NCBI RefSeq assembly: GCF_006738645.1
Contig: NZ_AP019700.1
Span: 5,328,351-5,392,350, forward strand
Source of the DNA: Stella humosa
Lineage (GTDB): Bacteria > Pseudomonadota > Alphaproteobacteria > ATCC43930 > Allostellaceae
Length of the DNA stretch: 64,000 nt
Direction of reading: 5' to 3'
Part shown: in pieces, positions 49,668 through 54,030 of the stretch
Numbering within the stretch: the stretch's first letter is position 1
How the letters are laid out: each line of letters opens with the position of its first letter
Notes under the pieces: generated by a model
What the model saw: only the letters and a program-made list of their open reading frames with translations
Told to the model about the DNA's origin: nothing
Database searches by the model: none
Program-made: the position numbers and the translations under genes

Positions 49668-50633
49668 ATGTCGCCTCCTGCCGATACCAACCGTTCCGCC
49701 GTCCTGGCTGATCCGCCCGAAGGCATGCGGGTGTTCGACCGCCACAGCGTTCGCCGCCATCGTGAGCGTGCCGCTGCGGGGTTCGCCGGGCACGGCTTTC
49801 TCTTCGACGAGGTGGCCGCCCGCTTGGCCGACCGGCTGGACGACGTCCGGCGGGAGTTCGCCACCATCCTCGACATCGGCGCCCGCGGTGGCGTGATGGC
49901 GCGAGCGCTGGCCGCCCGCGGCGGCGATGCCCCGGCCGCGCTTGGCGACAAATCCACCGTCGTCATCCACAGCGATCTGGCGCCATCCCTACTGGCGGGC
50001 CTGCCGCGCGCGGTGGTGGCCGACCCGGAGGCCCTGCCCTTTGCCGGTGGCTTCGACCTGGTGGCAAGCTGCCTCGACCTGCATTGGGTCAACGACCTGC
50101 CCGGCGCTCTGGTGCAAATCCGCCGTGCCCTGCGGCCGGACGGCCTGTTCCTGGCCGCCATCTTCGGCGGCGACACGCTGAGCGAATTGCGCGAGGCGTG
50201 GCTGGCGGCCGAGATCGAGGTCGAAGGCGGGGCCAGCCCGCGCATCTCCCCCTTCGCGGACGGCCGCGACGCCGGCGCCCTGTTGCAGCGGGCCGGCTTC
50301 GCCCTGCCGGTGATCGACACCGATCGCATCACCGTGACCTACGCCGATCCCATCGCCCTGATGCGCGACCTGCGCGGGATGGGCGAGACGAATGCGGTGG
50401 CACTCCGTCGCCGCACCGCCACCCGCCGCGCCACCCTCTTCCGCGCCGCCGAGATCTATGGCGAGCGCTTCGCGGACGCCGACGGCCGCATCCGCGCCAC
50501 CTTCGAGATCGTCACCATGACCGGGTGGGCCCCCCACGCCGACCAGCAGAAGCCGCTGAAGCCGGGCAGCGCTGCCTTCAAGCTGGCCGAGGCGCTGAAC
50601 GGCGAGCCCGATCAGTCGGCTCGATCACAGTGA
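49668..50633 (+). CDS. class I SAM-dependent methyltransferase (NDUFAF5/BioC-like)
   Basis: A 321-residue methyltransferase. Motif I is ATILDIGARGGVMARAL, with a downstream FDLVASCLDLHWVNDLPGAL and the RPDGLFLAAIFGGDTLSELREAWLAAE segment typical of the mitochondrial NDUFAF5 (complex I assembly) and BioC subgroup. The N-terminal MRVFDRHSVRRHRERAA resembles NDUFAF5 rather than BioC. It is divergent from comF. Its 3' end overlaps the convergent Doc toxin gene by nine bases. Confidence 0.85.
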   Translation: MSPPADTNRSAVLADPPEGMRVFDRHSVRRHRERAAAGFAGHGFLFDEVAARLADRLDDVRREFATILDIGARGGVMARALAARGGDAPAALGDKSTVVIHSDLAPSLLAGLPRAVVADPEALPFAGGFDLVASCLDLHWVNDLPGALVQIRRALRPDGLFLAAIFGGDTLSELREAWLAAEIEVEGGASPRISPFADGRDAGALLQRAGFALPVIDTDRITVTYADPIALMRDLRGMGETNAVALRRRTATRRATLFRAAEIYGERFADADGRIRATFEIVTMTGWAPHADQQKPLKPGSAAFKLAEALNGEPDQSARSQ

Positions 50634-51011
50634 GGTCGTCTGCGCGCGCAGCCAGGCGGCAAATTCGGCTTCGGTCGATTGGCGCGCAGCCGCCTGTTCG
50701 ACCATTCTGACGGCATCCAGCGCATTGCAGGAAAATGCATACCCGTTCAGGGCAATGAACAGGCGCGCAGCCATCCACGCGATGCGCTTGTTGCCGTCAA
50801 GGAACCCGTGATTGCGCAACAGGCCGCACGCGCAAGCCGCCGCCAGATCGGCGATGTCCGGCGTTCCATAGGCTGCAAGGTTTCGGGGGCGATCGAGCGC
50901 GGCTTCAATGGCGCCGCGATCGCGAATGCCCGCTACTCCGCCGTGCTCGGCGATCAGCCGATCATGGATCGCAAAAACGACTTTCGCGTCGATCCATGCC
51001 CAATCCGTCAC
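50625..51011 (-). CDS. Doc/Fic-type toxin (type II toxin-antitoxin)
   Basis: A 128-residue death-on-curing family protein. The active-site motif HxFx[D/N]GNKR is intact as HGFLDGNKR (residues 68-76, His68). Doc toxins phosphorylate EF-Tu and stop translation. The protein has the family's leading helix AWIDAKVVFAIHDRLIAEHGG. It is translationally coupled to the antitoxin gene (ATGA overlap). The antitoxin is AbrB-like rather than the usual Phd, but such pairs are known. It probably stabilises its locus or acts in stress. Confidence 0.9.
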   Translation of the reverse strand: MTDWAWIDAKVVFAIHDRLIAEHGGVAGIRDRGAIEAALDRPRNLAAYGTPDIADLAAACACGLLRNHGFLDGNKRIAWMAARLFIALNGYAFSCNALDAVRMVEQAAARQSTEAEFAAWLRAQTTSL

Positions 51012-51241
51012 TTCGCGAGAGCCCGCAGGATCTCGCGATCGTCATGCAGGATATCTTCAGCCAGCCGCATCTGGCGCTCGAACTCCGGATCGTAGGGGGT
51101 CAGTCGATAGCCGCCATCCGGCGTCTCCGTCAGAAACAACGTGTCCCCCTTCTTCACCTTCAACTGGGCCATTGCTTCCTTGGTAAGGATGATGCCGGCC
51201 GAGCCGCCCACGGTTGTGATCTTGAAGGCCAGCATCTCCAC
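51008..51241 (-). CDS. AbrB/MazE-type antitoxin (SpoVT-AbrB domain)
   Basis: A 77-residue protein with an N-terminal swapped-hairpin DNA-binding domain (AFKITTVGGSAGIILTKEAMAQLKVKKGDTLFLTE in part) and a C-terminal acidic helix that should neutralise the Doc toxin. The GTG at 51241 or an ATG two codons later (51235) could be the start. A perfect AT-rich palindrome lies immediately upstream and is the obvious autoregulatory operator. It is the first gene of the pair. Confidence 0.88.
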   Translation of the reverse strand: MEMLAFKITTVGGSAGIILTKEAMAQLKVKKGDTLFLTETPDGGYRLTPYDPEFERQMRLAEDILHDDREILRALAK

Positions 51242-51277: not shown

Positions 51278-52777
51278 TCACACCAGATCGCCAGGACTGT
51301 CCAGCTCTTTCATCTTTCCGCCTTCGATCAACAGCCAGCGCGTGCCGATGGCGCGCGCGAAGCTGCGGTCGTGGGAGACCAGGACCGAGGTCGCCTGCTG
51401 GGCCAGGATCTCGGCCTCGAGCTGTTCCTGGCCGGCGATGTCGACATGGTTGGTCGGCTCGTCCATCAGGTAGAAATTGGGCTCGGCCAGCCGGATCGCC
51501 AGCAGGCCGAGACGGGCCTTCTGGCCGGGCGACAGGCGGTCGATCGTCTGGCGCTGCCGGTCGACCATGAAGCCCGCGCCCGCCAGCAGGCTGGTGGTGC
51601 GCTGGTCGCCCAGGCGGAAGGTGCCGCCGATGAAGTCGTGCGGCGTCTCCCGTGGCGGCAGTTGCGACATCTGCTGGTCGAGGTAGCCCAGCACCACGGT
51701 CGGGGCGACGCGGACGCCGGGCATGGCCTCGGGATCGGCCATGGCCCGGCGCAGCAGGGCGACCAGTTGCGACTTGCCGACGCCGTTGCGCCCCAGCAGC
51801 ACGATGCGGTCCTGCTGGCGCACCTCGAGCTTGCCGGTGCGGAAAAGTGCCCGGCCGTCGGGCGTGCGCACCGTCACATCGTCGAAGGCGGCCAGGACGC
51901 GGGCGTGGGTGGTGCGGCTGGCCAGCCGGATATCGGCCGTGCGGGCCAGGTGCTGCGGACGCAGTGTCCGTTCCAGCGCCTCGGCGCGCTGGGCCATCTG
52001 CATCGACTTCTTCTGCGCGGCGTCGCTGCGGCTGTTGATGCCGACATTGCGCAGTGCCGCCGCACTCTGGCGCAGCCGCGTCGCCTCCTTGGCATCGCGC
52101 GCCAGCCGGGTGGCGTCGGCCTGGTCGTCGTCAGCCAGCAGCGCGCGGGCGGCGAAGTAGGGATGGGCATAGAGGCGCGACGCCTCGGGCCGCACGAACA
52201 GCGTGCGGTTGGTGCAGGCTTCCAGGAACTGACGGTCGTGGCTGGCGATCACCATCGGCACCTGGCGCAGCGGGCTGGTGATCCAGCCTTCGAGCAGGCG
52301 GATCTTGTCCAGGTCCAGATGGTTGGTGGGCTCGTCGAGCAACAGGGCGTCGGGGTCGGCGACCCAGGTGCGGGCAAGCAGCGCCAATCGCTGCCAGCCG
52401 CCGCTGAGCGCCCGCAGCGGCCGGGCGCGCAGGTCGTCCGGCGTCTCGAGTTCGTCCAGCACGAGGTCGACGCGCCAGCCCTGGCTCTCGCGGTCGGCCG
52501 GCGGTATCGCGCGGCGCACCATCTCGGCCAAGGGCAGGTCGAGCAGGTTTGCCGGCACGTCCTGCTCGACGAAGCCGACCTTCAACCCGCGCGAGCGGAT
52601 GATGGTGCCGGCCGACGGTTCCGCCTGCCCGGCCAGACAGCGCAGCAGGGTGGACTTGCCGCCGCCATTGCCGGCGACGAGGCCGATGCGGTCGCCATCG
52701 GCGATGACGAGGTCGAGGTTCTGGAAGAGGGGTTCGGCGACAGTGACGCCGACATTGCGCAGGCTGATCGAGCCCAT
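51278..52777 (-). CDS. ABC-F family ATP-binding protein
   Basis: A 499-residue soluble ABC-F protein with two nucleotide-binding domains and no membrane segments. Walker A motifs are VAGNGGGKST and LGRNGVGKSQ, signature-like motifs LSGGWQRLALL and LSPGQKARLGL, Walker B LLLDEPTNHLD and LMDEPTNHVD. ABC-F proteins act on ribosomes, as antibiotic-resistance or translation factors. An in-frame ATG at 52864 would add 29 residues but lies in a hairpin loop and is poorly conserved in family terms; 52777 is preferred. The long leader carries an ORF and alternative hairpins. Confidence 0.93.
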   Translation of the reverse strand: MGSISLRNVGVTVAEPLFQNLDLVIADGDRIGLVAGNGGGKSTLLRCLAGQAEPSAGTIIRSRGLKVGFVEQDVPANLLDLPLAEMVRRAIPPADRESQGWRVDLVLDELETPDDLRARPLRALSGGWQRLALLARTWVADPDALLLDEPTNHLDLDKIRLLEGWITSPLRQVPMVIASHDRQFLEACTNRTLFVRPEASRLYAHPYFAARALLADDDQADATRLARDAKEATRLRQSAAALRNVGINSRSDAAQKKSMQMAQRAEALERTLRPQHLARTADIRLASRTTHARVLAAFDDVTVRTPDGRALFRTGKLEVRQQDRIVLLGRNGVGKSQLVALLRRAMADPEAMPGVRVAPTVVLGYLDQQMSQLPPRETPHDFIGGTFRLGDQRTTSLLAGAGFMVDRQRQTIDRLSPGQKARLGLLAIRLAEPNFYLMDEPTNHVDIAGQEQLEAEILAQQATSVLVSHDRSFARAIGTRWLLIEGGKMKELDSPGDLV

Positions 52778-52855
52778 GTGCATCTCTCGCGACGGGTGCG
52801 GGCCCACCTCGCGAGGAGGATGGCCGGCACGGATCGAAACCAGGAGAAGCAGCTG

Positions 52856-52872
52856 CCCCGGCATCGCCGGGG
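52856..52872 (-). promoter_or_regulatory. hairpin in the ABC-F leader
   Basis: CCCCGGC (52856-52862) pairs perfectly with GCCGGGG (52866-52872) around a three-base loop. The loop contains an ATG (minus strand, 52864) in frame with the ABC-F gene. It is 79 bases upstream of the preferred start. Confidence 0.5.
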
Positions 52873-52888
52873 GGACAGCGCCAAGGCG

Positions 52889-52975
52889 CCGTTGCGGGCA
52901 GGCCCGAAAGGGTGGGACGCTACGGGTGCGTCAGTTCCGACCTTCGGCCAGCCCCGCAACGGAACGCTGCGGGGC
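52889..52975 (-). promoter_or_regulatory. mutually exclusive hairpin pair (attenuator-like) in the ABC-F leader
   Basis: GCCCCGCA (52951-52958) pairs perfectly with TGCGGGGC (52968-52975), a hairpin inside leader codons 15-23. The overlapping segment CCCGCAACGG (52953-52962) is instead the exact complement of CCGTTGCGGG at 52889-52898, after the leader stop. Only one of the two pairings can form, so ribosome position on the leader ORF could choose between them. This is a visible sequence fact; the function is inferred. Confidence 0.55.
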
Positions 52976-53017
52976 GGCGGCAGGCCCACGGGTGTGCTGC
53001 TGGATGCGGTCGATCAT
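52931..53017 (-). CDS. 28-residue leader ORF upstream of the ABC-F gene
   Basis: A short ORF beginning MIDRIQQHTRG and ending GLAEGRN, preceded by a strong ribosome site (GAGGGAGGG, 53022-53030) four to five bases before the ATG. Its stop is 153 bases upstream of the ABC-F start. A hairpin lies within codons 15-23. It has no membrane segment and no codon run of one amino acid, so any stalling cue would have to be antibiotic- or peptide-specific. It may also be a short coincidental ORF, but the strong SD argues otherwise. Confidence 0.6.
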   Translation of the reverse strand: MIDRIQQHTRGPAAAPQRSVAGLAEGRN

Positions 53018-53056
53018 GCAGCCCTCCCTCGATGGCCGGATGTGGAACAGGCGATC

Positions 53057-53085
53057 CTGTTAGCGGCGGCCAGCGCGGGTTGCAA
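53057..53085 (-). promoter_or_regulatory. candidate promoter of the ABC-F leader
   Basis: TTGCAA (53080-53085) is followed on the minus strand after 17 bases by TAACAG (53057-53062), giving a start near 53050 and a leader of about 270 bases. The match is partial (4 of 6 and 3 of 6). Confidence 0.4.
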
Positions 53086-53094
53086 GCGGTAAGC

Positions 53095-54030
53095 TCACAA
53101 GAGGTCCCGCAGCATGGCGACCAGCGGCTCGTCCGCCGGCGGCATGGGATAGTCGCGCAGGCGGTTGGCGCGCACCCAGGCCAGCCGCTGGCCCTCCTGC
53201 GGCGTCGGGGTGCCGCGCCAGTTGCGGCAGATGAAGAGCGGCATCAGCAGGTGGAACGACTCGTAGCGATGCGACGCGAAGGTGAGCGGCGCCAGGCAGC
53301 GCTCGGCCGTGTCGATCCCCAACTCCTCGCCCAGCTCGCGCACCAGGGCTGCCTCCGGCGTCTCGCCCGGCTGCACCTTGCCGCCGGGGAACTCCCACAG
53401 GCCGGCCATCGACTTGCCGGGCGGCCGCTCGGCAATCAGCACGCGGCCGTCGGCATCGACCAGCGCCACCGCCGCCACCAGCAGGGTCGGCAGCGCCACC
53501 GGCCGGGCGATCTCGTAGCGCACCGTCTCGACCGGGGTGCCGCGCAGCCGGGTCTGGACGCGGCCCGTCTCGACCATGCCCGCCCGCTCCAGCACCCGGC
53601 ACGAGGCGACGTTGTCCGGGTGGACCTCGGCGAACACGATCCGGGGCACCTCGAACGAGAAGGCATGGCGGATGGCGCCCTTCACGGCCTCGGTCGCGAA
53701 GCCCTGACCCCAGTAAGGCATGCCCAGCCAGTAGCCGACCTCCAGCTCGCCCTCGCGGTCGCCCTGCTCCAGGCCGATGTTGCCGATGAAGGTGCCGTCG
53801 TCGCGCCGCGTGACGGCGAACACCTCGGCATGGCCCGCCGCCCGGTCGGCCGCCGCCTGGGCGATGAACGCCTCGGCGGCACCGGCCGGGTAGGGATGCG
53901 GGATCCGCTGGGTGTAGCGCGCGACCTCCCAGCTGGCGGCCAGGGCCGTGATCGCCGGCGCATCGGCCGGCGTCATCGGCCTGAGGACGAGGCGGGCGGT
54001 CGTCAGCGCCTCAACTGCGGTAGCTGCCAT
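53095..54030 (-). CDS. fused GNAT acetyltransferase and Nudix (MutT-type) hydrolase
   Basis: A 311-residue fusion. Residues 1-175 are a RimJ/RimL-type GNAT domain ([44 protein letters not shown]). Residues 178-311 are a MutT-like Nudix domain whose box [23 protein letters not shown] matches GX5EX7REUXEEXGU. MutT cleans 8-oxo-dGTP from the nucleotide pool. The family is known in alphaproteobacteria as a bifunctional acetyltransferase/pyrophosphohydrolase. It lies just downstream of argJ on the same strand, overlapping it by 20 bases. Confidence 0.92.

Follow-up and report, generated by a model that had tools for sequence, protein, structure and literature searches.

Control of ABC-F genes by leader peptides is documented mainly for Gram-positive bacteria and for drug-resistance factors. 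In the leaders of msrD, vmlR and cplR, the fold adopted is believed to depend on where the ribosome stands on an upstream open reading frame (uORF), one fold hiding and another exposing the ABC-F ribosome site (PMC10314930, PMC9226507, PMC10201436). The nearest described stalling signals to the one presented here are the RGPP and RAPP arrest motifs (PMC12992588). Searches of a collection of open-access papers found the leaders of msrD, vmlR, cplR and others, none of them like the leader from Stella described below; a prior description elsewhere is possible. No Rfam family reached its threshold for this leader. The ybhL leader (RF00520) is an alphaproteobacterial leader hairpin. It shows weak model similarity, precedes a different gene, and was rejected because it reached 21 bits where the gathering score is 50; its matches in 61 genomes were at chance level, none over the cut-off.

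The locus was analysed in a window of 64,000 nucleotides from Stella humosa (contig NZ_AP019700.1, positions 5,328,351 to 5,392,350). It contains an ABC-F gene of the ribosome-rescue kind. The leader of this gene is very probably a genuine switch, apparently not described before, by which stalled ribosomes would activate the gene.

51278-52777, minus strand: ABC-F ATPase gene (open reading frame call), 499 amino acids, starting MGSISLRN

Two ABC_tran domains were identified in the protein by domain search. The best NCBIfam model was NF000355 (ribosomal protection-like ABC-F), with 267.6 bits and thus below the cut-off of 380. Scores against the Vga, Lsa, Msr, Sal and OptrA models were far under their cut-offs, and no curated resistance or ribosomal-protection model was passed. 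In the tree, the leader-linked ABC-F proteins fall into one clade of their own with 100/100 support, next to a gammaproteobacterial sister group. The resistance ABC-Fs included in the tree, OptrA, PoxtA, Msr(E), Vga(A) and Lsa(E), lie apart from it; several long branches make the deep placements unsure. Because it scores below the model cut-off and stands apart in the tree, the protein is not assigned to the resistance (ARE) ABC-Fs. It may nevertheless act like one of them. Met-1 at position 52777 is the point at which the orthologues begin to align. A longer start at 52864 was rejected, as a stop interrupts its frame in S. vacuolata and the orthologues begin at 52777. The gap between the end of the preceding GNAT-Nudix gene (53095) and the ABC-F start is 317 nt. 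This upstream gene (window 53095-54030, minus strand) encodes a GNAT acetyltransferase and a MutT-like Nudix domain fused in one protein. Just downstream of the ABC-F gene (window 50625-51241, minus strand) lies a small gene pair, by eye and from the translations a candidate Doc-type toxin and AbrB-like antitoxin.

The leader begins with the following elements.

53057-53085, minus strand: promoter-like TTGCAA-N17-TAACAG upstream of the uORF, at a position that recurs in relatives
53022-53028, minus strand: Shine-Dalgarno sequence GGGAGGG of the uORF, within the conserved block AGGAGGGCTGCATG
52931-53017, minus strand: uORF of 28 codons, conserved in 68 loci, leader peptide MIDRIQQHTRGPAAAPQRSVAGLAEGRN
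52982-52990, minus strand: Arg-Gly-Pro codons, putative stalling site, distinguished by their spacing and by Gly/Pro conservation

The 28-codon reading frame with a strong ribosome site that a preliminary description of this DNA had reported is present at 53017-52931, with GGGAGGG ahead of the ATG. That description had also proposed a check of its conservation in relatives and would have taken a lack of conserved uORF and pairings as refutation; the proposal withstood this check. When contigs were searched with the ABC-F protein, orthologues turned up in Stella, Rhodospirillaceae, Acetobacteraceae, Microvirga and Devosia; nearly all show a uORF behind AGGAGGG-TGC-ATG or a variant close to it, and nearly all of those at least 50% identical are preceded by a uORF with a strong ribosome site and the GP motif. 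Further copies of the leader were collected by a covariance-model search of 385 alphaproteobacterial genomes, and plasmid copies were found in Sinorhizobium meliloti, Pararhizobium, Rhizobium, Shinella, Ketogulonicigenium and Gemmobacter (annotated plasmids). A short uORF with an (R/F)-Gly-Pro motif occupies the same place in 68 loci, far beyond the genus, including Stella, Acetobacteraceae, Rhodospirillaceae, Microvirga, Devosia, Rhizobiaceae and Rhodobacterales. Examples of the peptide are as follows.

S. meliloti: MQNYYYRFNRQRGPVNALRMRLQG
Devosia: MGYRHDQHRSRGPVSALQL
Microvirga: MIEAMHQRTFGPGHALQQLVAGPAIERI
Ketogulonicigenium: MARRFHDRTRGPVPAPRLISRG

When 60 loci were aligned on the hairpin described below, Gly was found in 58 and Pro in 57 of them. 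The residue before Gly is Arg in 36 loci and Phe in 18 (in Microvirga, for example), so that Arg is not invariant, and the motif Pro is followed by V, W, C, G, R, A or D (RGPV, FGPW and similar). In the same 60 loci, pN/pS at the R-G-P codons is 0.37 in frame versus 1.56-1.69 in the other two frames; for the uORF, values are 0.37-0.66 in frame versus more than 1.1 in the other frames. These ratios indicate that selection acts on the leader peptide. Since the C-terminal part varies in length, and the stop lies in the hairpin loop in some Devosia, the constrained part is the one up to the GP motif. In three loci (L057, L060, L071) the hairpin loop holds the uORF stop codon, giving a peptide of 19 codons. 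One locus from a metagenome assembly (L076) has ATC in place of the ATG start with the rest intact, either a sequencing error or a loss. In L068, L069 and L150 a distance of 6-7 nt separates a promoter-like -10 box from the uORF start, and a ribosome site cannot be made out; the uORF mRNA may therefore be leaderless in these loci. A strict sigma-70 scan of the Stella leader gave no promoter. The candidate leader promoter of the preliminary description hence has no strict consensus match, but is plausible because a similar box (TTGC-N15-18-box) recurs about 33-40 nt before the uORF in many relatives.

The putative switch is composed of four segments.

52951-52975, minus strand: hairpin 1:2 in the uORF, 5' arm (segment 1) 52965-52975, 3' arm 52951-52961
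52946-52954, minus strand: core of segment 2, GGGCTGGCC, the last four bases of the hairpin 3' arm and the next 5 nt
52896-52904, minus strand: core of segment 3, GGCCTGCCC, complementary to segment 2 in 8 of 9 pairs (p = 0.06 at the Stella locus alone)
52778-52791, minus strand: segment 4, CGCGAGAGATGCAC, presumed ribosome site just before the ABC-F start, predicted to be mostly paired

A perfect hairpin within the leader ORF had been described with a stem of 8 bp; it is present, and this stem is a portion of an 11-pair stem formed by 52965-52975 with 52951-52961. In all 68 loci (60 and 8 plasmid) the hairpin starts 6 nt past the Pro codon (Ser in three loci), and the codon number, be it 11 or 17, makes no difference to this spacing. 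A structure-blind alignment of 30 sequences pairs 98% of the hairpin cells, with 22 cells changed on both sides compared to 6.9 in shuffles, and sliding the partner cuts pairing to 52% or less. With 67 distinct sequences, 97.6% of the hairpin cells are paired and 49 are compensatory compared to 14.0 after shuffling, a count reached in none of 500 shuffles; the 30-sequence alignment is the fairer test, because the larger one was fitted to the model. Compensatory changes in the stem, which had been suggested as a check on the leader, are thus found across families.

Segment 2 follows the pattern GGGC-N-GRYC, and its complement, segment 3, lies about 15-50 nt downstream in most loci. GGCC in segment 2 is matched by GGCC in segment 3 in Stella and Acetobacteraceae, GACC by GGTC in Devosia, many Microvirga and Rhizobiaceae (the last by reading), GGTC by GACC in L035, and GATC by GATC in L151 and L153, which indicates that the four variable bases of the two segments change together in separate lineages. 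Tests at single loci are not decisive alone: p is below 0.05 for segments 2 and 3 in 20 of 60 loci, and pairing of segment 3 with segment 4 is significant in 5 of 60, with Stella weak (p = 0.54). Because segment 3 had been picked by complementarity and these tests were indecisive, a permutation was performed over 30 lineage representatives, in which every leader was scanned for complements to its own segment 2 and to each of the foreign ones. The own segment 2 fits the leader better than foreign ones (z = 3.25, P = 0.001), and in the same test so do the own last 24 nt before the ABC-F start (z = 4.8, P = 5e-5). In Devosia and Rhizobiaceae, segment 3 (CTGGTC-TGCCC) is able to pair either with segment 2 (GGGC-T-GACC) or with GACCAGAG before the ABC-F start; the word GACC is common to both partners (by reading). 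The comparison thus shows covariation of segment 2 with the leader and of the leader with the ribosome-site region. Predicted accessibility of the ribosome site rises from 0.32 to 0.38 when segment 1 is hidden and returns to 0.31 when segment 2 is hidden as well (Wilcoxon P = 4e-4 over related sequences); the average effect is small. For Stella, the folding model gives no change in ribosome-site accessibility between the two states, and folding of the whole leader shows no clear two-state change. Since the effect is small, comes from related sequences and is absent in Stella, the freeing of the ABC-F ribosome site is treated as a presumed step. The whole leader folds better than its shuffles (z = -2.56).

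Two further elements are of more local occurrence.

52889-52898, minus strand: third segment of the preliminary description, CCCGCAACGG, exact complement of 52953-52962, a Stella-specific extension of the pairing between segments 2 and 3
52856-52872, minus strand: 7-bp hairpin with an ATG (52864-52862) in its loop, common to Stella and S. vacuolata only

In the preliminary description the exact 10-base complement supplied the competing pairing. The complement exists, as a local extension that is broken in S. vacuolata, and the predicted fold of the Stella leader with the 5' arm hidden includes it. A 10-mer of this kind occurs in 31 of 2000 shuffles (1.6%) when the hairpin is kept and the flanks are shuffled. 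The 10-mer alone is weak evidence, because any exact 10-nt inverted repeat turns up in 13% of shuffles of this leader at 71% GC. Mutually exclusive pairings of the hairpin 3' arm are conserved nevertheless, and the conserved competitor is 52946-52954 with 52896-52904 rather than this 10-mer. The hairpin with the ATG in its loop, also noted before, is present and shared solely with S. vacuolata, where two compensatory changes preserve the stem and the frame from the ATG closes after 12 codons. It is probably not part of the general switch.

Covariance-model matches with E of 2.5e-5 or less in the 385 genomes precede an ABC-F gene in 12 of 12 cases, whereas the weak matches L156-L161 (E from 5e-4 to 1e-2) do not and look like chance. 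Of the 385 genomes of this class-wide sample, 22 gave an ABC-F match with E no higher than 1e-60. Thirteen of the matches with 45% identity or more carry the leader, and two, in G297 and G330 (loci L192 and L196), lack it; the call for L190, one of the 13, relies on a low model score together with a uORF that reads QHGP. No leader was found for ABC-Fs of 38-42% identity in the same sample. L055 is without a leader, and its ABC-F gene follows closely behind another coding region. The leader moves with the ABC-F gene across different neighbourhoods, including symbiotic plasmids, and by comparison is linked exclusively to this ABC-F clade. A second copy in the Stella genome (32-nt match, L107) was rejected, being located inside an ftsH-like gene. 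The sister ABC-F clade (L178, L179, L182-L186) has a different leader in Rahnella, Morganella, Pantoea, Klebsiella, Vibrio and Photobacterium. It consists of a uORF of 26-27 codons after AAGGAGG, with an inverted repeat CTCAAG...CTTGAGC at the uORF end and a near copy of this repeat, CTTGAGTAAG, just before the ABC-F start, and may represent a second attenuator family.

The preliminary description had read the leader as an attenuator, and the conserved uORF, the hairpin and the competing pairing with its compensatory changes support this. It is likely that the leader is a leader-peptide attenuator which acts mainly on translation of the ABC-F mRNA. Comparison among the loci shows the uORF, the constraint on its peptide, the hairpin and the constant spacing from Pro to hairpin, the elements on which such a mechanism would operate. 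A ribosome would initiate on the strong uORF. During free elongation the hairpin of segments 1 and 2 would reform behind it, the downstream leader would fold back on the ABC-F ribosome site, and expression would be kept low. A ribosome stalled with the Gly-Pro codons in the decoding centre would cover, with its leading edge, the foot of segment 1, 6 nt downstream. With segment 1 occupied, the freed segment 2 would pair with segment 3 and draw it off the ABC-F ribosome-site region, which would raise translation of the gene. Stalling at (R)GP is presumed, as is the direction of control. The most likely inducers would be drugs that act at the peptidyl-transferase centre or the exit tunnel, because the nascent chain at the motif is only about 10-17 residues long.

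Alternatively, the leader could set the level of ABC-F instead of sensing drugs, the GP motif stalling ribosomes by default and ABC-F resolving the stall. A chain of 10-17 residues is more like the drug-dependent leader peptides than SecM-type arrest, and RGPV differs from RGPP. On the other hand, Gly-Pro is the conserved core of the motif, and the ABC-F protein falls outside the resistance clades tested. The related motifs RGPP, RAPP and RAGP arrest ribosomes unaided (PMC12992588), and the ABC-F protein EttA acts on the leader peptide MgtL (PMC11282234). Such homeostatic control is regarded as possible, with low confidence. Attenuation at the level of transcription, in which the pairing of segments 2 and 3 would govern a Rho-dependent or unrecognised terminator between the uORF and ABC-F, would suit a long and structured leader, and the vmlR and cplR leaders also use transcription attenuation (PMC9226507, PMC10201436). 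The covariation points to the ribosome site, however, and an intrinsic terminator is absent from the leaders of Stella, Sinorhizobium, Devosia and Microvirga, the search of which listed a single site, inside the ABC-F coding region. Control of translation is preferred for the lack of an intrinsic terminator, and control of transcription is considered unlikely.

The coding constraint on the uORF is real and would also be expected if it encoded a functional small protein with an incidental hairpin. Yet the length past the motif is not conserved, several Devosia have the stop inside the hairpin loop, and the hairpin covaries and lies at a fixed distance from the motif codon, which leaves this reading very improbable. 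Chance folding of a GC-rich intergenic region could account for an exact 10-nt inverted repeat, as the 13% of leader shuffles show, but not for conservation and compensatory change across families; it is already refuted for the uORF and the hairpin, and for the leader it hardly deserves credence.

Under the preferred reading of a translation attenuator, the locus represents a distinct conserved leader family before an uncharacterised ABC-F clade. The family occurs in Alphaproteobacteria that live in soil or with plants, and Sinorhizobium meliloti plasmids are among its locations. Its uORF consensus is a concrete candidate stalling motif, the covariation pinpoints bases for mutation, and the leader could reveal what this ABC-F senses and does. 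It is tentatively proposed that Alphaproteobacteria widely carry a new class of arrest leader, whose short nascent chain, with (R)GP at its end, would report stalling and feed back on an ABC-F that relieves it. In the case in which this is true, leader and ABC-F would be a self-contained pair, one sensing stalled translation and the other acting on it, and not a resistance switch for one drug class.

As at msrD, vmlR and cplR, the ABC-F gene of the Stella locus is preceded by a uORF that has a ribosome site of its own, and like the ABC-F uORF attenuators the locus has mutually exclusive pairings, one of them within reach of the uORF ribosome. Several known ABC-F leaders have very short uORFs (MRI, MIN, MAGN), whereas those described here are mostly of 19-28 codons; several, of the vmlR and cplR type, use an intrinsic terminator, whereas none was found here. 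Unlike msrD, vmlR and cplR, the leader has an (R/F)GP motif and a hairpin within the coding region, occurs in Alphaproteobacteria, and precedes ABC-Fs whose clade stands apart from the tested resistance ABC-Fs. With the RAPP/RGPP and SecM (RAGP) arrest peptides it shares Arg and Gly-Pro at the presumed arrest site and an upstream ORF that controls, here presumably, the next gene (PMC12992588). In place of the Arg-Ala/Gly-Pro-Pro motif of RAPP/RGPP, a single Pro is followed by Val, Trp, Cys or Gly. Unlike in RAPP/RGPP and SecM, the motif stands near the N-terminus of a very short peptide, and Phe can replace Arg.
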